A stretch of 64,000 nucleotides of DNA from Aldrovandia affinis. Lineage: Eukaryota; Chordata; Actinopteri; Notacanthiformes; Halosauridae. Both the position numbers and the translations under genes were made by a program. The stretch covers positions 1,831,715 to 1,895,714 of the forward strand of contig JAINUG010000015.1 of the NCBI GenBank assembly GCA_029706075.1. Reading direction: 5' to 3'. Positions 8,801 to 59,853 of the stretch are shown piece by piece (position 1 is the stretch's first letter; the number at the start of each line of letters is the position of its first letter). The notes under the pieces were generated by a model. It worked only from the letters and a program-made list of their open reading frames with translations, ran no database searches and was not told the origin of the DNA.

Positions 8801-10822
8801 CTAGGTCTTCTGTGTTTTCTGCTGGCTGGACAGAGAACATGGGTGGGTCTTCGCTGAGAGTCTCATCAGCCATCAAATTCGCCAACATTCACTGCTGAGC
8901 TGTGAGAAACACAGAGTGTAAACAATGGAACACGTTTTGGGATATTAGACTGGTTTCAACAGGTTTAGGTTAGCAGGTCTTATATGTTGGGGATTACTCC
9001 TGTCTTATTGAACCACACCATACAGGTAATATGCGTTTTTAAATCTTATTTTTCAGAGAAAGAGAAACTGAGCATTGCTTGGTTCCTGAACCAGGAGATA
9101 TAGCCACACATGCAGGCTTATATTGTAACCCTGTTTGAAATGTTAAGAAACAAAGAAAGTTAATAAACTTTTCTATAACAGTCAACTTAATAAAGAATGA
9201 AAACACAGGAAACATAGTGGCAAATGTTACTTTATAAGCTTACCATAAACCAAATATCCTGTCAAAGGGTCCATTGAAACTCAAGGATATCTTGAATAAA
9301 CAATAAGGTAAATTGAAATTAAATATATTATGCTTAATTCAAGATTTAAAAAAATCCCAAGATAAAAAAACAGCTATGTGCTCACCACCAAATATGTAAA
9401 ACATGGACATTTAAAAGAACTGTGTCTATTTCACTGCTAGCTGGGGCCATAGCATAAAAAATACACATTTGGGGTCTGGATGACATGCTATAAGAAAATT
9501 TGCCAAATGGAAACTGGTTCAGTAAACCACACTGCTGCCCAATTGAAATAAAATTCAAATGGGACAAAATTCCCATACATACTACATAAATAGCTAAATA
9601 GTTCATTTTAGTCTACTTCACTATCATACCCTCCCTTTCACAAAAGTAAAGTAGCTAAAAAATGATGTTGATCTTGGTCCACTAGTTATCCCACACCAAT
9701 TTCAAATGAGTCAACAAGTAATGGGATGCTGGTTCATTCTATTACGACAATATTCCATTGTGTGCATGAGCCCCACGATCTGGTATAAAATCCAGACTGT
9801 GCCAGTGGTTCACCTAAATCATCACCAATGTGTAGCACCCACCTGGGTGATAGATGGCAGCCATTTTGCACCAAAATACTCACCACACATATGCTGAAGT
9901 GGGAAGAAAGGGGTTAATATATCTAGTTCCCTAGCAATACACTGCTGACCACAACCCTCCCTCCCTGGGCAGGCATATGGCCAAGTATGTATCACTCTGC
10001 AGACCTCCTAGCGACAGTGAGGATTTGATTGCGGACCACATGGCACATCAGTGCACTGAGAACTAACATTAAAAGTAGTAACCTAGTAAATATTAGATAG
10101 ATAACTATTATGAACTATATTATGTGTGTTTTGTTACTGGAAATGTTTCTGGTAGTATGGATCAAACATGGATCTTTCTTCCTGTTGCTTACATCGGAGC
10201 GTGGTAAAGGAGAAACGCGTGCAAAAAGACACAATACATAACTGACTTCCTGCTAAATGTAAATAAAAGTACCAATAGGTAAAATCTCAGCTGTATATCA
10301 AATCATTACCATTTATACCATTTTTAATATCAGTGCCATACAGTGACTCATAAAAAGATTCAGAATAACTATATGAAAATCAGTCTGAAATGAAAAGGGT
10401 ACAAAAAACACATCAACCTCAATTCAATGATCAGCAAACACAATGAAATGGACCAGTTCATCAGAGAAGGCTGATTTGTTGAGAGGTGGAGCAATAAAAG
10501 TTGATTCCATAATACTATACTTCCGTCTACCTCTAAAAGAGGAGACTGACAGATAAACAGTAAAGAGATGACTGGCTGTGTTTAGGACTCATGGGAGACC
10601 AGGGGCATGGCAGCAGCAACCCTCAGGAGCCACAGCACTGCTTGCCTGCTCCTGGCTGACCTAGCAGACACAGAGGGGCAGGGAGAGTCGGCTGAGGAGG
10701 TAGTCACTGAGAACGTCAATCAGGACCTTTTCAGTTAATCTTCAAGGTGCCGTTGGGGTACGTACTGAAGGTGGTCCAAGTGTTTGGTCACCAGGTCATC
10801 CAGCATCTCTTAGTTTTTGTGT
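8801..10822 (-). pseudogene. clec16a: CLEC16A relic (two recognisable exon remains)
   Basis: Two minus-strand blocks match vertebrate CLEC16A in order. Block 1 (10,822 down to about 10,612) follows a good acceptor (CTCCATCTGCAG). Across three frames it reads DDLVTKHLDHLQY, NGTLKIN and VLIDVLSDYLLSRLSLPL, against human SDLVAEHLDHLHY, NDILIIN and FLNDVLTDHLLNRLFLPL. It has at least two in-frame stops and two frame changes. Block 2 (8,899-8,801) has an intact acceptor and an intact donor (CTAG|GTGAGT). It reads LMADETLSEDPPMFSVQ then NTED, against human IMERSKLSELAASTSVQ, with the same spacing of M, LSE and SVQ; a TGA lies in frame just before. CLEC16A is an endosomal/mitophagy regulator, normally about 1,000 residues. 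No other exons are seen, so this copy cannot make the protein. Placement head-to-head with DEXI supports identity. Assignment of block 1 is strong; block 2 alone is weaker. Confidence 0.75.
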
Positions 10823-13570
10823 CTGCAGATGGAGAGAGTGAAAGACAGAAACAAAGACAGCTAGATAGTCTGTTACTTTAAGGGTGTCAACACCACCCAC
10901 ACAACCTGCAAGCTTTGCAACAGAGTGACAAACATATTTACAAATGTCAGGCAAGCTCAAAAGACAAAAAGCATAACATGCTGTTACATGCTGTGCATGA
11001 CTTGTTGACATAGCCTGCACTCGCTGTAGCAGAATAGCTTTGCAAATGAAACCTGGACAACTGTTTAACAGCACTCGTGCTTACACCCTTGGTTTACATG
11101 CTGCCCTTGTGCTAATAGTGACAGTACAGACTGCAATGACCCTTCAGGAACCCTGTGAAGGGACAAAGGTGCCCTGTCGATGACAAATTCAGTTTTACTA
11201 TTTCTTTGCAATTGCTTTTAGTCAGGGTAACTTACACTTAACATATAACCTGAATATAAAGCTGGATCATTCATGCATTAAGTACTACATCTCCAAAATA
11301 CAAGAGGATAAGTGGAATATGATCTAATCTGATATGAATCAGGGAACTGTGCTGCAGAGTGCAGAACTGTGCTGCAGGGTGACGTGAATGCTCAACTTTA
11401 TAGAACAGATCTGTGACAAACTGTAAATAACACCAAACATGGAGGTCTGAAACCTTAATTCCAGTGAAATTAGTAGCTATTGACCCATGTAATAATTTAG
11501 CTTCTGTTTAACTAAATGCCATTCCAGTCTATCTCCCTTTCCCTACAACTCAGGACAGAACAACCTTTTTCAGTTAATCTCCACTGTAAAGACTCTTGAC
11601 GCTCCATGTTCAGAGTGTTTCGCATCAACAAAAAGCAATTAACAGTAAGGGTTACCTTAGAAGAACAGCAATAAGCCTAAAGGTATATGCAGTTTAAACC
11701 ATAACTAACTACAAACAGGGCTTCAAAAGATTATTTTAAAATATGGTACTATTGTGAATTCTTGAAATTTAACTAAAGCATCTACTTCTTCCCAAACCCC
11801 AATGCTAAATAAGTCATCTTTCAAATATGTACTTTTGTCATCTTCTTTATGAACTGAATTCCATTTAAGATTACTCCAGTTGCTACGGAACTAAAGGTAA
11901 AGTCTTAGATTTCTACTGTGTGTAAAAATGCCAGAATCTTAAAAAACATAAATGACAGTGCGCTATAATGCAAGGATGGGCAAGGAGGGCCATATCGGTT
12001 TCTGGATTTCAAGCAAAATCTTGATGGTTTAATTAGACCAAGCAATTATCTGATCTCACATTTTAGCTAAATGTACTGACAAGCTTAAGAATGACTGCTG
12101 AAGACTGTTCTTGTGTCCATATATGAATGGTTTTACTATGGTCTTTTTAACATGGACCACCGTTGGTGCATACAGCCAATTGACCAGCGCATGGCTTGCA
12201 TACATACCAGCCCTCCAGGAATGGAGTTCCCCCCTGATATAAAGCATTTCCAACATTTCAATTGTCATAGATCCAAGAGTTCAAGACTGTAGCATGATCT
12301 TCACATTGTATTATGACACTGACATCTATTGGACATTAGTGGAACTGACACATACCTGCTCACAAGCAAACTTATTTTAGCCTACAACTGCTCCCACATG
12401 GGAGTGTGTTACACAGATGAACTTCCTTTATCTTTGAAAGATGAAAATTGGATATGGTGGTTTCTTACTATTGGTCTGTCTGCTAACACTTGTGCTTGAT
12501 AATGTGGTTCCAAATGAACCACACAAGATTTGAGAAGTAGGGTATGTCAGTTTTGTCTTGTATATTGTGGAGCAAGTACTAATTGTCTGCTGTGAGGGAG
12601 ACGGTTTGACCACAGTTTAGAGACAACTGTCTTCCAGGAAAGGACACACAGTGCTGAGAAACAGTACAATATAAAACAAAACCGCATTGTAATGTCTGCG
12701 CTAGCCACAAGCAAACCTCAGGAAGCAAAACCAGATTAAGCTCTGATTTAACAGTCATGATTAAACAAGAGTTTTGAATGCATGTTGACCATGCATGGAG
12801 GGAAAAAGGACCAATATGAGTACATGTGCAACACAGAAATCTAAAAATGAAACATGCAAGAATGATAGTAGTAGTTGAATCATATGCTGGCAGAAAATGC
12901 TCTAAGTTCTCATGCCACTGCACTACGATTAGACTTAGAATGTCTCCAGTAGCTGTACTGTATACAGACAGTGAATGCTTTCAGTCTTGAATCTCAGGGT
13001 ACCAGACTCGCCATGGAATGGCTTCTATGATGTGGGTCCTAGAGATGAAGCCCTTCGACTCCTATATGACTGTTACAGGGACAGGGGCAAACACAATATC
13101 CATGGTATATGTTGTCTAAATGTACTTAATATTAATTGTATTGTTTGTCCTGATCATCTTCCCCAAATCACTCCAGAGAAAAGCGGACGTTCAACGTAGT
13201 ACAATTTACCACATAATATGGAAGCGATAATTAATACAATCCATTTTAACTTACCAAAATGTTGCACGGCCTTATACATTTTCCCTACAATAGAAACAAA
13301 AAATGGCTGCACCCTTATACAGAATAAAATTAGCTTAGCATAGTTCTTTCAACAGGATTTGTCATAGATCCAGTGTGCCCATTACGGTGTATACAAGCAG
13401 TGGATTGCCAACAGTATTTAAAAACAAATGAGTTGTAAACCAGATAAAAAGTTAGCAGCTTACAAGCCAGTATGTTGAAAGCGATTTGTGTGCCTGTGAC
13501 ACAGATGGCGCAGATAATACCAGTAGTTAGCTGGTGAAATAGTGAAAATGAGGGATGACTATTACCAATT
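10823..13570. other. Non-coding stretch, no gene seen
   Basis: Expected location of the earlier CLEC16A exons on the minus strand if that gene once started near DEXI. Conserved N-terminal blocks (such as LDHLKYLYHVL or VCVQLLQTLN) were not found by eye. An open frame at 12.6-12.9 kb on the minus strand has no recognisable motif and low-complexity composition. No RNA gene or bounded repeat is supported. Confidence 0.35.
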
Positions 13571-13860
13571 CTCCATTTAAATTTTTTTTTTTTCCAGTTT
13601 TTCTCACAATTTAGTAGCCAATTACACCGTCTATTTATTTCGATTTACCCTCCTCACACGGGTCCACCGCTCGTCCCTATGAGGCAAGCTAATTCTCTGA
13701 GGGCAGCGAACTCTGCTTCCTTCGAGATGGAACTCGACCACCCACGTTCTGAAGACTCTTTACGTGCTTCACGGCGGACCCGAGCCAGCTCACCCATCCA
13801 ACCACAAAACAAGTGTATCGGTTGGTGTAGGTGGAAGTTGCCCGTGAGTGCTGGTCTGAA
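13571..13860. repeat. GC-richer block of unknown type, possibly a dispersed repeat
   Basis: A T-rich start (TTTTTTTTTTTTCC) leads to 'CACAATTTAGTAGCCAATTA' and a GC-rich body with CACACGGGTCCACC and CGGCGGACCCGAGCC. The two GGTCC/GGACC segments are partly complementary. Composition differs sharply from the AT-rich flanks, as for an inserted repeat, but no target duplication or terminal repeat was found. It is not coding in any frame that can be recognised. Confidence 0.25.
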
Positions 13861-14025
13861 ATCAGTTTTGCCGTTTTCTTCATCATTATTAAGGTTAGGA
13901 TTTGGGTAGAGATAGCTTGTTCTGTGTCACTGCTTAGGGGTAACTTCTCCCATGAGCCAATCTGTCAGCAGTATCAATACGGGACAATCAGATTGACTTT
14001 TTCTTTGACGTTGGCATCAATGATT

Positions 14026-14419: not shown

Positions 14420-15769
14420 TAGCAAGCTAGCTAGCATTAACCTACTTGTTCATGTTCCATCTCATAAAATCTGATCTGTGTACATACCAGCACGGCAGCA
14501 CCTGACCAAATTCCACCACTATATTTATTTTACTTAGAACGTGACTGACCTAATTACTTATCACGTGAAGTCCAGATTTCAAGAGATTTATCTTTACCCT
14601 GTCATTGGAGGTGTGGACATGCCGCGGATCTCGTACGCTATCTCCTAATGTTGCGTGAAAATCTATCTTCAAATGTGCATGCTTCTCTTTAGAATATTTT
14701 AAAAAAAATAGTCCACACCGGATTTTTTCGATAGTCTAAAGATGCTGTTTCTACCTTCCAATCGTTATTGAAACTCACCGGAATAATACACACCTGTAGC
14801 CATCTATCAAACACATTCTAACTTGTCCACTTGCACCAGTTATATCAGTATATCAAACCATGACCTCTAGGGTGTTCAATCTCTTCGCGTGCACGTGTAT
14901 TGTGTTTACCGCACTTCCCAGCTAACTTGGGAACTACAAATTGAATATCCGGGTTGATGACTAAGGAATTGTGGGACATGTCGTTTATTTTTATATTTGC
15001 TGAATGCATTTGAGTTCTTATTTAAGCATAGATGTTGAAAAATAGAAGGAATCTTTATTCATACAGTTGTACCTAGGCTATTAGGCTAGTGGTACACTAC
15101 ATCATATGAAGTTGCTATTTCTAGGGAGAGAATCTTGGCCATTTTCATTATATTCATCAAATGTGTCAGCATAGAGGCAATCAGGGGTGGCTGTGTGAAG
15201 AACTGAATCATAGTGTATCTTACATGTGTATTAGCCCTGGCGCTTGGGGACGCCATGCTCATGACCTAGTACGGAGGAGCAGTGACGCTTCTGTCTCGAC
15301 TGGAACAATAGCAAATTTGAGAGACACTGAGAATATGATGAGTGAAGGACTGGAAAATGGGAGAATGGAACAACATTTGGAATGCAGTCGTCAAACTTTC
15401 CTTCTGGTCGCAGAGGGACCCATTAAAAAATCAGATTGACGTAAGGGCCAATTAAATGCGAATAATTAGACGATTCTTCAGGAACTGTACTGTACTGTAC
15501 TTACGACCGGAATCTGATCGTAAGCGACATTTGACCCGCAAAGAGGCGGGATTTGTATGACTGGCGTCTCAACTGGCCAGTCATACCAGTATATACACAG
15601 TAGCTAGCGAATAAAGACGTTAAAACACGCCTACAGCATATGCAGCAGCGTTGCAACCATAACAGTAACATAAAGTAACCATTCGCAAATGCTACATTTA
15701 AACGAGACGGCTGTTTTTTTATCTGCATGTAAACAGATGGCGACAATCGAGGTATTGGCGTTTAGCTAA
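14420..15769. promoter_or_regulatory. Divergent interval upstream of DEXI, with candidate DEXI first exon end
   Basis: Lies between the minus-strand CLEC16A relic and DEXI; in human these two genes are head-to-head. No coding sequence is recognised. The part at 15,480-15,770 is relatively CpG-containing for this window. A good splice donor (TAA|GTAAGC) at 15,769/15,770 would pair with the acceptor at 15,945 to give a 5' UTR intron for DEXI. A 92-codon open frame at 15,161-15,439 has no recognisable motif and is not called. Promoter function is inferred from position only. Confidence 0.3.
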
Positions 15770-15945
15770 GTAAGCAAAGCTTAATTAAATGTAACGGTTA
15801 GCTAACTTGTTTGTATTGCAGCCCTACTGACGAGTGCCATGTCACAAATTCCGATGCAGTGCATTTTTCCTATCACTACAACAGAAATGTATTTTGATGC
15901 ATGTATCTGCATTTTGTAGAGTTACCCGGTTTATTTCCTTTTCAG

Positions 15946-16416
<471 letters not shown>

Positions 16417-21416: not shown

Positions 21417-25086
<3,670 letters not shown>

Positions 25087-26640: not shown

Positions 26641-27479
26641 ACAGGGAACTTACATATGAAAGCTGGTCATGTTAACAGCTTTCACTTGAAGCAACATGGG
26701 AAGGGAGGAGTGAGAAATGCTGAGCAGAGCACGGGCGCTAGAGACTGAACATGTATGTTCAGCATGTGGAAGGGAAACTCTTGCCATTTACTTGCCACCT
26801 GTGTACTTGCAGAAATTGAGCATCATACCCAACCCAGGTTTCTTTTGACCTTGGCCTTACATGTTCATGTAATTAACAGCTAGTGGTCATTGAGACATTC
26901 TGACTCAATTACATGTTTATTTAACCTTCCAGACAAAGAGGTTTAAGAAGAACATGTTCCACAATAGGAAAACAAATGTCCCTGCACATTTTCTCTGCTA
27001 CCCCTGGCATGGGAGGATAACCTGTTCTCAGGGCCGGCTCTACACATTTTGGTGCCCTAGGCGAGATTGGCATTTGGGTGCCTCCCCCCACAACAAACAT
27101 CAATCAGACATCACCATGGAAGCTAGCCACATTATTATCACTGATATAATGTTGTAGCCTACTACTAATTTTGGTAGCCTATTAATAAAGCTTGAGACTC
27201 AAGATAAGCATGAGGGTTTTGCAACTCTGCAATTCAGGTGTAGTAGCCTAGTTTTGGGAATAACTACAGGTGGGTACTAATAAGCTTCAAGCCAAAACGT
27301 GAGGGTTGGGTAACTCAGCATCAGCATGCATTCATCCTTCAATCTGTATGAGTCTAGCAGTAGCTCTTAGCATCGCATTATCTAGCTGGCATTAGCTTGT
27401 TTATTACTTAGCTAGTTAGCTCCCTAGCCTCCTACAATAACACAGAAACACAACAAAATGGCGTTTTGATGACATAGCC

Positions 27480-51581: not shown

Positions 51582-53260
51582 AATAATAATAATAAATAAT
51601 TAATTTTATTTATATAGCACACTTTAAAATACAGAGAAATCTCAAGATCTCAGATACCATTTAAAAACAACAAAAAGAGCAATACAAATACATATAATCG
51701 AATTGTCCTATACACATAATAAAATAAATGATACACATCATTTATTTTTCCTAAAAAGTGGGGCTGAAAAGCTGGTATGGGTGTTCATTGTGTGGTTTTG
51801 TGCATTTTAAAGTTTAGTGGTTTGGAAAAGCAGAGATGAAATGGTTAGTCTTTAATTGTGTCTTGAAAGTGGTGAGAGAGCTGGAAGTCCTGATGTGATA
51901 TGGGAGGTGATTCCAAAGGTGTGATGCCAGGGAGCCCGGTCCCCCATGGTGTGGAGGTGGGTTCTGGGGACAGTGAGGAGGGTGGAGGTGAAAGAGCTGG
52001 ATCTGAGGGTTCGGGTAGTTATCTGGTGAGTGAGAAGATTTTGAAGGTAGATGGGGCTGTTTCCAGTGATGGTTTTGAAGGTGTGGAGAAGAATTTTGAA
52101 ATTGATCCGAAATTCAGGTAGCCAGTGAAGAGCGGCCAGAATTGGGGTGTTGTGGTTTGATTTTATTGTCCTGGTGAGAATACGGGCGGCACTGTTTTGT
52201 ATGTACTGTAGGCGTTGAATGGTTTTGGAAGCTAAACTGTCAAACAGGGAGTTAAATTAATCAAGTCTAGATTAGATGAATGCGTGGACCAGTTTTTCTG
52301 CATCGGGTTTGCTAAGGGATGATCTAATCTCTCAATGTTTTTGAGATGAAAGAATTAGGTTTTGCAAAGGCTGTTGATGTGGGCTTCAAAGGAAAGTGCA
52401 GAATCAAACTTAACTCCAAGATTAGTGACTATGGCAGAGAGGGGAATGTAATGTCCGTTAACTGAGATAAGTAGGTTGCTAGCCTTTTTGGTTTGGTGTG
52501 GGGTGCCAATAAGAATGGCTTCAGATTTGCTGCCGTTGAATTGTAGGTAGTTATTGTGCATCCATGTCTGGACAGTGAGTTGTGAAATGGCCAGGTGGGG
52601 GTCAGAGGAGGTTTGTAGGTAGATTTGTGTGTCATCAGCGTAACAGTGAAAGGAGATGTTGTGGTGTCTAAGTATGGAACCAAGGGGAAGCATGTATATG
52701 AGGAAGAGGATGGGCCCCAGTACTGATCCCTGTGGGACCCCGGAGGAAACAGGGCAGGTGTTGGAAGAAAATGTTCCCAGGGAGACAAACTCTTTCCTGC
52801 CAGTGAGGTAGGAGGCAAGCAGTGCCAGTGATGTCTATGTCCTGGAGAGGCTGGAGCAAGATGGAATGGTCGACCGTATCAAAGGCTGCACTCAAGGAGT
52901 ATGAGTAGAGTGGGGGAGCCAGCATCTGCAGTCATCAGGAGGTCATTTACAACCTTCAGAAGGGCTGTTTCAGTGCTGTGTGATGGCCTGAAACCAGACT
53001 GGAAAACCTCATAAAGCTTGTTGGAATTTTCTAGCACTTTGGATAGAAAAGGTACGTTTGAGATTGGGTGGAAGTGTGTCAGTACCTCAGGGTCAAGGTT
53101 GTGCTTTTTAAGGAGAGGCTTAATGGCTGCTGTTTTGAGGGTTGTAGGGACTCCAGTAGTGAGGGATTTGTTGATAATGTTAACAGCAATAGCGGAGATG
53201 GCTGGAAAACATGACTTTAGTAAGGGTAAATGGTAAAAGGGTAAGTCCATGGTTTTATGG
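51582..53260 (-). mobile_element. L2-type LINE, 5'-truncated copy with preserved 3' end
   Basis: Reading right to left on the minus strand: [73 protein letters not shown] (catalytic D), [11 protein letters not shown] (decayed PQGSVLGP) and [12 protein letters not shown] (YADD). These are followed by the C-terminal domain (NSAARILTRTIKSNHNTPIL, LHWLPEFRINFKI, RAPWH). The 3' end TGCTATATAAATAAAATTAA plus an ATT-rich tail (plus strand 51,582-51,610) is the usual L2 end. Domain order is complete from the RT fingers onward, but several frames are needed. The endonuclease domain is absent. Confidence 0.88.
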
Positions 53261-53678
53261 CCTACCTTTTAGTCACAGTAACAGTGGTATTTCAGCAACA
53301 AAACAATATGATGCAGGGGTTATATATAACATAAGAAATGCATTATAGAATTTTATTTTTGTCAGCTGCATCTTTTGGATAGCAACAGAGCACCGAAAGG
53401 CAACATAGTATTTATGACATTTTTTAACATGTTCTATTAGCTTATAGAGTATCATACATGCACATTCTTATACATCTAAAATAATGATGTCCCCTGCTGT
53501 GTGACCTGCAATTTGCTACCATGAAGAGATGTTGTTATTGGTTTATATAGATCCCATATAAATACAGTATATAACCAAAAACAATGGGGGGCTTTATTGT
53601 GTGAGGTTTTATCTGAATTGTATCTGAATTCACATGAGGTCAGAAGGTACAGAAGTTACTGTTTGGACTGGGTCTGTG

Positions 53679-54626
53679 TGTGACGACCGCGGTAAGGACC
53701 CAGACGCAGATCAGGGATTAGGCAAAAGAGTTGTTTATTCACAGGCAGGGGTCAAAACCAAGAATCAGGGAATCAGAGGTACAAAATCGCGAGGCAGAGA
53801 GAAGTAGTAATAGGGCAGTCAAAAGGTCGATACTAAGGAATCAGAAGGGCAAAAGGACAAAATCGCTGGGCAGGCTCGGGGTCGTAATCAAAGGGTAGTC
53901 TCGGGAAATGCTAATAACTCTGGCTTCGGAAAGGTAGGCTCAGGGAAATAGAATCAACGTACTGACATGGAGAAATGAAAACACTGAACATTTATACAGG
54001 GAGACATAATAGAAATCAGGTGAGACAACGAGGAGAGAGAGGCTGGAACACAGGGAAGAGATAATTACATAACAAGAGGGAAACGTAAGACACGGACACT
54101 GAACCATACAAACATATAGACAATAAACGACCTGGGAGAACAGGCAGACACGTGCATAGTAAAAGGGGAGGTACGCAAGGAGAAACGTTGCGTGCGTATG
54201 AGGAGAGAACGGAAAACTAAGCAGGGATAGGATAATGAGAGAGAGAAATGCCGGTAGTAGGAAGCGTGAGATAATTAGTGATTAGTAGTGTTAGTAACTA
54301 AATCTAAATCCCTAACGTTAGTAGATTAGTTAGTTAGTACTGTACACATCTAACTAATATATACAAAGTGCGATCACGAAAGTAGGAAAGAAGAAAACGA
54401 GAGAATAAGCGAAGTCGGAGGAAACCCGTAAATTCTAAACACCCGAAGTGCATGACAAGACAAGGAGTGGATCTAGAAATAAACGGAACAGGAACGATAA
54501 CAGACGGGAGAGCAGAACGTGACAGAACAATGAGAAACGCAAAGCTGACAACAGAATGAAGAGACATGACAGATAATAAATACACGAAGTACAAAAATGA
54601 CAGAAACATAAACTCAGAATATAACA
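53679..54626 (-). repeat. LTR (3' LTR in the element's own orientation)
   Basis: 948 bp, TGTGACGACCGCGG ... AGAATATAACA on the plus strand. Read on the minus strand it begins TGTTATATTC and carries a poly(A) signal AATAAA near its end followed by CTGCGTCTGGGTCC, as in fish Gypsy LTRs. Open frames inside it are not genes. Confidence 0.9.
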
Positions 54627-54861
54627 GGACCCCCCCCCTAAGAAACGCCTCTTGGCGTTTAACAGGAGGAACAACAAAAACAGATAAACAAACAAGACGC
54701 AGGGAAAGCCAGGCAGAACGGGGGCAAAGCACGTGGCGGGATCTCAGAACAGGCAGGGTCAAAACACATGGCAGAATCTCAGACAGGCAGGGTAAAGGCA
54801 CGGGGCAGAATCTCAGAACAGGCAGGGTCAAAACACAAGGCAGAATCTTAGACAGCTCGGG

Positions 54862-56775
54862 AACAATCAAAGTCTCTGATAAGGGTTTTGTCCAATATGA
54901 ACCGGGATGGGACCCAGATACGTACCTTCAGGAGTCCTTGACCGCTGGCATCATTCGGCCATCCTCATCACCCGCTGGAGCGGGGTTCTTCTTCGTGGGG
55001 AAGAAGGACGGTTCTCTTCGTCCCTGCATTGACTACCGTTCGCTCAACGACATCACCATCAAGAATCGCTACCCTCTCCCCCTCATGACGTCCGCATTTG
55101 AACTACTTCATGGAGCCACCGTCTTCCGAGAAGTTGGACCTGCGCAACGCCTACCACCTGGTGCGCATTCGTGAGGGGGATGAGTGGAAGACGGCGTTCA
55201 ATACTCCGACAGGTCACTGGGAGTACCTGGTAATGCCTTTTGGGTTAACCAATGCCCCTGCCGTTTTCCAGGCATTGATCAACGATGTCCTCAGGGATTT
55301 CATTAATCAGTTTTGTTTTGTCTACCTGGACGATATCCTTATTTTTTCCAAGAGTATGGAGGAACATGTCACCCAGGTCCGCAGAGTTCTACAGCGTCTC
55401 CTTGAAAACAGGCTCTATGTGAAGCCAGAGAAATGTGACTTCCATTGTCACACCACCACCTTCCTGGGCTTCGTCATCTCGGCGGGGAGCATCCAAATGG
55501 ATCCTCGCAAGATCAAGGCTGTCTTGGACTGGCCCCAGCCAGAGTCCCGGAAGGAGTTACAGCGCTTTCTGGGATTTGCCAATTTCTACAGAAGGTTCAT
55601 CAGGAACTACAGTACCATTGCTGCTCCACTCACCGCCCTCACCTCCATCAAGATCCGGTTTCACTGGAATCCTCAAGCTGAACTAGCCTTCCGGTCACTT
55701 AAACAACGCTTCACTTCAGACCCCATTCTCATTCACCCTGATCCCACCGCCCAGTTTATCGTCGAGGTCGACGCTTCCAACATTGGGGCAGGTGCCATCC
55801 TTTCCCAACGCTCCGCCAAGGACAAGAAGGTTCATCCCTGCGCCTTCTATTCCCATCGCCTCAGCCCTACGGAGCAGAACTACGACATTGGCAACAGGGA
55901 ACTGCTCGCAGTCAAGCTCGCCTTGGAGGAGTGGAGGCACTGGCTGGAGGGCTGAAGTTCCTTTTCTGGTCTGGACTGACCACAAGAACCTGGAGTACCT
56001 GCAGACTGCCAAGAGACTCAATTCCCGCCAGGCTCGTTGGTCTCTCTTCTTTTCGAGATTCAATTTTGTTCTCTCCTATCGACCTGGATCCAAAAATACT
56101 AAACCTGATGCCCTTTCTCGCCGTTTCGAACCCATATCCAGGGTTTCCATTCCGGACACCATCCTGCCTCAATGCTCCATCAACAGCGTTCAACTTCGCA
56201 TTGAGGCAACAGTGCGCTCCGCCTTGGAGGGTGAGGCCGGCCCCAGTCGCTGTCCCTCGAACCGCCTCTTCGTGCCCAGTTCTGTCCGATCCCAGGTGCT
56301 TCAGTGGGGTCACTCCTCCCGCCTGTCATGTCACCCTGGCATAAACAGGACTATGTCTTTTATCCAGAGACGTTTTTGGTGGCCTGCCATGGTCCAGGAC
56401 GTTAGGAGTTTTATTTCTGCCTGCTCTGTCTGTGCCCAGAATAAGGTTTCCCATCAGCATCCCTCTGGTTTGTTACAGCCCCTACCCATCCCTCACCGCC
56501 CTTGGTCCCACATAGCTCTTGATTTTATTACGGGTTTACCCTCCTCCAACAGCAACACCACCATTATGACTGTTATTGATCGTTTTTCTAAGGCTGTTCA
56601 TTTTGTCCCCTTACCCAAGCTTCCCTCCGCCAAGGAGACTGCCACCCTCATTATCCAACACGTTTTTCGTTTACATGGCATCCCCAGTAACATTGTTTCC
56701 GACAGAGGTCCCCAGTTTATCGCCAGGTTTTGGAAGGCTTTTTGTTTACTCCTTGGTTCGTCGGTCAGTACGTCC
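54862..56775 (+). pseudogene. Gypsy pol block: RT, RNase H, partial integrase
   Basis: A fossil pol segment on the plus strand. In order: N-terminal RT motif ([18 protein letters not shown]), RT core with [10 protein letters not shown] (catalytic YxDD) and [14 protein letters not shown], RNase H with [12 protein letters not shown] and [10 protein letters not shown], the zinc-binding/H2C2-like start of integrase ([20 protein letters not shown]) and part of the integrase core ([27 protein letters not shown]). Protease and gag are not seen; the integrase is incomplete. The block is broken in places and runs against the LTR direction. Similarity is to teleost Ty3/Gypsy elements. Confidence 0.88.
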
Positions 56776-57723
56776 TGTGACGACCGCGGTAAGGACCCAG
56801 ACGCAGATCAGGGATTAGGCAAAAGAGTTGTTTATTCACAGGCAGGGGTCAAAACCAAGAATCAGGGAATCAGAGGTACAAAATCGCGAGGCAGAGAGAA
56901 GTAGTAATAGGGCAGTCAAAAGGTCGATACTAAGGAATCAGAAGGGCAAAAGGACAAAATCGCTGGGCAGGCTCGGGGTCGTAATCAAAGGGTAGTCTCG
57001 GGAAATGCTAATAACTCTGGCTTCGGAAAGGTAGGCTCAGGGAAATAGAATCAACGTACTGACATGGAGAAATGAAAACACTGAACATTTATACAGGGAG
57101 ACATAATAGAAATCAGGTGAGACAACGAGGAGAGAGAGGCTGGAACACAGGGAAGAGATAATTACATAACAAGAGGGAAACGTAAGACACGGACACTGAA
57201 CCATACAAACATATAGACAATAAACGACCTGGGAGAACAGGCAGACACGTGCATAGTAAAAGGGGAGGTACGCAAGGAGAAACGTTGCGTGCGTATGAGG
57301 AGAGAACGGAAAACTAAGCAGGGATAGGATAATGAGAGAGAGAAATGCCGGTAGTAGGAAGCGTGAGATAATTAGTGATTAGTAGTGTTAGTAACTAAAT
57401 CTAAATCCCTAACGTTAGTAGATTAGTTAGTTAGTACTGTACACATCTAACTAATATATACAAAGTGCGATCACGAAAGTAGGAAAGAAGAAAACGAGAG
57501 AATAAGCGAAGTCGGAGGAAACCCGTAAATTCTAAACACCCGAAGTGCATGACAAGACAAGGAGTGGATCTAGAAATAAACGGAACAGGAACGATAACAG
57601 ACGGGAGAGCAGAACGTGACAGAACAATGAGAAACGCAAAGCTGACAACAGAATGAAGAGACATGACAGATAATAAATACACGAAGTACAAAAATGACAG
57701 AAACATAAACTCAGAATATAACA
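56776..57723 (-). repeat. LTR (5' LTR in the element's own orientation)
   Basis: Same length (948 bp) and, by line-by-line reading, same sequence as the LTR at 53,679-54,626. On its left it directly abuts pol sequence without the expected primer-binding site, consistent with an internally rearranged element. Confidence 0.9.

Positions 57724-59718: not shown

Positions 59719-59853
<135 letters not shown>

Follow-up and report, generated by a model that had tools for sequence, protein, structure and literature searches.

The stretch of DNA analysed here (the window, 64,000 nucleotides long) corresponds to C557:1831715-1895714 of the Aldrovandia affinis assembly, which comprises 1.22 Gb in 2576 contigs. 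CLEC16A, DEXI and their usual neighbours were sought in the window, and the whole assembly was covered by profile searches, which score the best candidates only; the absences reported below are valid for the readable part of the assembly, and stretches reading N (part of C1302, the second contig of interest, among them) lie outside their coverage. The window holds an intact DEXI gene, with a CpG-rich stretch at its start that is presumably its promoter, matches to TVP23A and, on the opposite strand, two broken exons of CLEC16A and a probable remnant of NUBP1 (Table 1). A SOCS1 gene is found further left on the same contig, and a second one lies on C1302, together with a largely readable CLEC16A.

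Table 1. Features of the locus and the SOCS1 pair (window positions, unless a contig is named)
Feature	Position	Strand	Evidence or remark
SOCS1	C557:1778925-1779404	+	E = 9.2e-68, no internal stops
SOCS1	C1302:588936-589418	-	E = 6.1e-103, no internal stops
Second CLEC16A block proposed earlier	8801-8900	-	unsupported as CLEC16A
CLEC16A exon 7 relic	10646-10822	-	tblastn with own-genome exon, E = 1.9e-5; blastn to C1302, E = 1.1e-13
CLEC16A exon 6 relic	12469-12589	-	tblastn with own-genome exon, E = 2.9e-14; blastn to C1302, E = 2.6e-15
Presumed DEXI promoter, CpG-rich	15251-16250		CpG observed/expected 0.75-1.07 per 500 bases; role inferred
DEXI, intact, 89 aa when counted from the first ATG in its open frame	16147-16416	+	PF15198, E = 2.9e-50
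TVP23A (TVP23 family) matches	21913-24714	+	tblastn, four pieces; PF05832
Probable NUBP1 exon relic	26936-27019	-	46% identity, E = 0.015

Relic CLEC16A exons beside an intact DEXI

An earlier note on this DNA had read two minus-strand blocks, at 10.6-10.8 kb and at 8.8-8.9 kb, as remains of a decaying CLEC16A next to an intact DEXI. The first of these is indeed broken CLEC16A: it matches exon 7 (human residues about 244-300) in two frames, with in-frame stops and frame-breaking indels in the alignment. The further colinear relic exons that were predicted are represented by exon 6 (human residues about 200-242), which had been overlooked and is an addition to the earlier reading; it has the expected order and strand and is a stronger match than exon 7, with two in-frame stops and one 3-base deletion. 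Both exons were recovered in several ways. A human CLEC16A bait, used in tblastn against the window, matched at 12,471-12,632 minus (E = 8.5e-10) and, in two frames, at 10,667-10,821 minus (both pieces taken together, E = 8.5e-4); with the CLEC16A exons of the fish's own genome as 22 queries, the next best match after exons 6 and 7, among the matches listed, reached 0.021; and the two exons were found again when 200 kb of C1302 and 84 kb of C557 were compared as DNA. The boundaries in Table 1 are taken from the splice positions. Exon 6 has kept both its AG acceptor and its GT donor, and exon 7 has kept its AG acceptor; of the four splice-site dinucleotides, the one that has changed is the donor of exon 7, which reads GC. 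The two relics, with their splice sites, are 1646 bases apart, the intron position between them being kept. Judged by its homology, its disabling changes and this kept intron position, the relic has the features of an unprocessed pseudogene, a decayed ohnolog of CLEC16A, and it would be expected to yield no useful transcript.

The 8.8-8.9 kb block fared differently. It gave no tblastn match at E<10 with the human CLEC16A bait, no match to the expected CLEC16A exon in the own-genome exon search (two other own-genome exons overlap it at chance level only, E = 14 and 25) and no DNA-DNA match in the comparison of C1302 with C557. Its score as a CLEC16A exon was assessed with the human CLEC16A stretch, the corresponding exon of C1302 being unreadable, and the best score, 22, is reached by 352 of the 2556 100-base stretches from both strands of the window (those over the block itself counted too). 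The block is therefore rejected as a CLEC16A exon, and the earlier reading is right in substance without it.

Decay of the CLEC16A copy in the window

The relic exons retain a trace of coding constraint. With the indel zone and the end of exon 7 excluded from all counts, third codon positions differ at 32 of 80 sites, compared with 34 of 159 for first plus second positions (p = 0.002 by permutation), an excess which indicates that this copy was under coding constraint after the duplication and then decayed. The timing of the loss relative to the duplication, estimated as 2*K12/K4, comes to 0.57 (bootstrap median), with a 95% interval (0.26-1.12) that is too wide for a date.

Exons 2-5 were not found in the 3.5 kb where they are expected (12.6-16.1 kb), exon 1 being too short to judge, and no later exon turned up in the window to the left of exon 7 (10.6 kb) or in 20 kb beyond the window edge; this is as far as the leftward coverage goes, and relic exons closer to SOCS1 are possible. 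Since 762 of 800 simulated exon copies mutated to the divergence of the relic were still detected (16 exons with 50 copies each, substitutions only and no indels, run on all but the five shortest among the 21 exons located), the exons missing from the examined stretch look deleted, rather than just decayed.

The readable CLEC16A copy and the single DEXI

All 12 genome-wide matches of the CLEC16A C-terminal profile fall at C1302:539-579 kb, and all three of the N-terminal FPL profile at C1302:531-535 kb. The human bait places 21 exon-size CLEC16A pieces across C1302:528391-579080, most of them unbroken in the matched part and several with visible splice sites. The complete CLEC16A that the earlier note expected elsewhere is thus present as a largely readable gene, which presumably works, though its completeness stops short in two places: one exon is unreadable, and exon 10 (549982-550097) is spread over two frames with stops between them, through an assembly indel, an unrecognised small intron or a real change. 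The Pfam searches list no CLEC16A on C557 and are insensitive in this respect, since they also missed the known relic exons. At C1302:560477-561752, several further copies of the start of exon 17 and its CT-rich acceptor directly precede the true exon and resemble a minisatellite that arose from the edge of an exon.

DEXI, claimed from the start to be intact in the window, is confirmed as such by its profile (Table 1), and this is its single match in the genome. A second intact CLEC16A-DEXI pair, which had been anticipated elsewhere, was accordingly not found in the readable assembly, because the loss has been reciprocal: C1302 has no recognisable DEXI relic either, the best tblastn match (E = 2.0) falling outside the interval between the CIITA-like gene and CLEC16A.

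Neighbouring genes and gene order

The remaining members of the neighbourhood are distributed in the same alternating fashion. The TVP23 profile (PF05832) has two matches genome-wide, both on C557 and none on C1302; one of the four tblastn pieces of TVP23A in the window runs beyond its exon, through stops. ParA-family matches, 11 in number, are found on C1302 (two, at 473 and 481 kb), C2356 (four) and C313 (five), with zero on C557; the two on C1302 sit where NUBP1 belongs, and a bait search identified the one at 481 kb as NUBP1. The window match to a NUBP1 exon is weak; its score was reached by none of 300 shuffles on the minus strand and by one of 300 on either strand, and its place beyond TVP23A and its expected strand make it credible as a probable relic. 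In the place expected for CIITA, at 515 kb of C1302, there is a NACHT-domain reading frame (E = 1.2e-11), which we call CIITA-like from its position and sequence. This gene (C1302:515301-517060) has several frame changes without obvious introns, and may be decaying or may contain assembly indels in G+C-rich sequence. Between DEXI and TVP23A in the window, nothing convincing was found as a CIITA relic, the best of 304 short frames searched singly giving E = 0.007.

SOCS1 ties the two contigs together: its two copies (Table 1) stand out from the other 12 of the 14 matches listed, which are at 8.7e-13 or weaker. The order on C557 is SOCS1(+), relic CLEC16A(-), DEXI(+), TVP23A(+) and the probable NUBP1 remnant, and that on C1302 is NUBP1(+), the CIITA-like gene(+), CLEC16A(+) and SOCS1(-). 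Read in opposite directions, both match, in orientation too, the human 16p13 order NUBP1, TVP23A, CIITA, DEXI, CLEC16A, SOCS1. As would be expected of the colinear halves of a paralogon, the two contigs have a retained pair in common, SOCS1, which agrees both in place and in orientation. DEXI and TVP23 are matched on C557 only and readable CLEC16A and NUBP1 on C1302 only, within the readable assembly, which is complementary loss. Taken together, C557 and C1302 represent reciprocal gene loss within a duplicated block; a duplicated block with CLEC16A lost and DEXI kept had been proposed from the relic and its intact neighbours, and the reciprocal nature of the loss is a correction to that proposal. 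SOCS1 is colinear on both contigs, CLEC16A is on C1302 and DEXI is single. A GRIN2-type gene (at 2.11 Mb of C557, with none on C1302) and SNN (two matches, on C1480 and C580) were tried as further pair markers and rejected, neither being on both contigs, which leaves SOCS1 as the sole retained pair that ties C557 to C1302.

CpG-rich starts and non-coding sequence

Immediately before DEXI, at 15,251-16,000, CpG observed/expected reaches 1.06-1.07, the window mean being 0.39; this stretch would be the DEXI half of an ancestral intergenic region. Exon 1 of CLEC16A on C1302 shows 0.98-1.05, against 0.66 for the surrounding 200 kb, although this peak is less distinct, since comparable values recur roughly 1 kb beyond it. 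These CpG-rich starts fit an ancestral bidirectional start region of which one half is used in each block, and it is plausible that CLEC16A and DEXI once shared a single promoter.

The blastn comparison of the 200 kb of C1302 (partly N) with the 84 kb of C557 gave 371 matches at E<=1e-3, from which 346 multi-copy ones were dropped. Among the 25 low-copy matches, only exons 6 and 7 are colinear, so that no colinear conserved non-coding sequence was identified between these stretches; the remaining low-copy matches look like repeats. One of these, an 87-base match of 77% identity between C1302:513278-513364 and window positions 13851-13935, has the wrong orientation, is low in copy number in the compared stretches and is probably a repeat as well. 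The G+C content of the two blocks is 0.48 on C1302 and 0.39 on C557, a strongly different composition for sister blocks.

Origin of the two blocks and alternative explanations

The reading that we consider very probable is that of a duplicated block, most likely produced by the teleost whole-genome duplication, with reciprocal losses that split CLEC16A from DEXI. According to this reading, the block NUBP1 - TVP23A - CIITA - DEXI - CLEC16A - SOCS1 would have been duplicated, most likely in that event, after which SOCS1 would have been retained on both copies. Each of the other genes would have survived on one copy or the other in alternation, C557 retaining TVP23A and DEXI, and C1302 retaining CLEC16A, NUBP1 and the CIITA-like gene. 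On C557, CLEC16A would at first have remained under coding constraint and then have acquired stops and indels, until exons 6 and 7 were left as recognisable junk and deletion had removed most other exons from the examined stretch. This would have split the head-to-head pair of CLEC16A and DEXI, each gene keeping a CpG-rich start.

The age of the duplication is the point at which this reading can be set against a small, later segmental duplication that took in SOCS1, CLEC16A and DEXI, with identical reciprocal losses afterwards. The latter, which we regard as improbable, draws on the fact that SOCS1 is the only retained pair joining C557 and C1302, with the GRIN2-type gene present on the first and not on the second and both SNN matches on other contigs, and on the four-fold divergence of CLEC16A (18/38), which is less than that of SOCS1 (34/47). 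That gap, however, may reflect a difference in third-position G+C (GC3), which is 0.92 for the SOCS1 copy of C1302 and 0.54 for that of C557. The SOCS1 copies, identical at 103 of 159 amino acids, appear near saturation at these four-fold sites, that is, the pair seems to be old, which speaks against a late event. Hox9 has seven matches, each on a contig of its own, in agreement with a teleost that underwent no recent extra doubling; an unduplicated vertebrate has four Hox9 genes, and seven seems too few for a recent further doubling. Teleost SOCS1a and SOCS1b, moreover, are a published pair of paralogues, assigned to the third-round duplication in PMC6368001, which again disfavours a segmental origin; the zebrafish account in PMC3296744 differs from this in counting a single socs1. 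On balance, the duplication that gave rise to the C557 and C1302 blocks was most likely that of the whole teleost genome.

Two other explanations concern the relic itself. Exons 6 and 7 might be a CLEC16A fragment copied near DEXI by chance, C1302 being the ancestral locus from which DEXI moved; just two exons were found in the window and the fuller gene set is on C1302, as this would predict, but the relic sits in the ancestral place and orientation with respect to DEXI, TVP23A and the second SOCS1, which is unexpected from a chance insertion, and we give this explanation very little credence indeed. Somewhat less improbable than either of these, and still unlikely, is that exons 6-7 were kept for a new role, for instance as part of a non-coding transcript, a proposal which is compatible with the main reading. 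Two neighbouring exons have survived where similarly conserved ones are gone from the examined stretch, and three of their four splice dinucleotides are intact, the fourth being GC. Nevertheless, changes at first and second codon positions amount to about 0.25 per site, a rate at which, by our own estimate, the loss of one of eight splice bases is unsurprising, and both relic exons lie on the strand opposite to DEXI.

Comparison with known loci and significance

Duplication followed by reciprocal loss is a known kind of event, of which this is a clean example. It resembles the reciprocal (divergent) loss that followed the teleost whole-genome duplication in having two blocks in which different members are kept, one pair (SOCS1) that is kept twice and a pseudogene remnant that marks one of the losses; it differs from the usual case in that the split runs inside a head-to-head pair and that the exons of the lost partner are recognisable on site. 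For genome evolution, this is a common process and an ordinary event with an unusually clear record, in which a doubled chromosome stretch with disease-linked neighbour genes was trimmed differently in each copy. No published report of the CLEC16A/DEXI split was found in a search of the open-access literature.

In zebrafish, the conserved neighbours of socs1 include NUBP1, CIITA, DEXI and CLEC16A (PMC3296744), the same genes as in the neighbourhood of the Aldrovandia affinis blocks. According to this account, DEXI and CLEC16A lie together beside socs1 in zebrafish, whereas in Aldrovandia affinis DEXI is on the other block, which suggests that each lineage resolved its duplicates in its own way; both DEXI copies would then need to have survived until these lineages parted.

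In human cells, the introns of CLEC16A are reported to contact the DEXI promoter, and for this reason the causal gene of the autoimmune association at 16p13 is disputed between CLEC16A and DEXI (PMC11818924). The human locus described there (CLEC16A-DEXI-CIITA-SOCS1) contains the same genes as the fish blocks. The reciprocal loss separates DEXI from CLEC16A in cis and, in contrast to the human arrangement, the fish DEXI has, as far as the sequence was read, no CLEC16A body in cis beyond the relics; the examined sequence around DEXI showed no non-repeat element in common with the body of CLEC16A. DEXI and CLEC16A, now on different contigs and presumably on different chromosomes, may have been apart during a large part of the period following the teleost duplication. 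If DEXI expression is normal, the contacts with CLEC16A introns that have been proposed to control DEXI in human autoimmunity would not be an ancestral requirement, a proposal that we put forward only tentatively and that may well turn out otherwise. If it were true, zebrafish (in which the pair is reported to be together) and this fish would constitute a natural cis-separation experiment; the split locus lets the regulation of DEXI be compared with and without CLEC16A in cis.

Other features of the window

The right-hand part of the window contains long reading frames amid many transposon remnants (52355-56904), which look like reverse transcriptase and a Ty3-type polyprotein, and a perfect CA repeat of 65.5 copies at 59721-59851.
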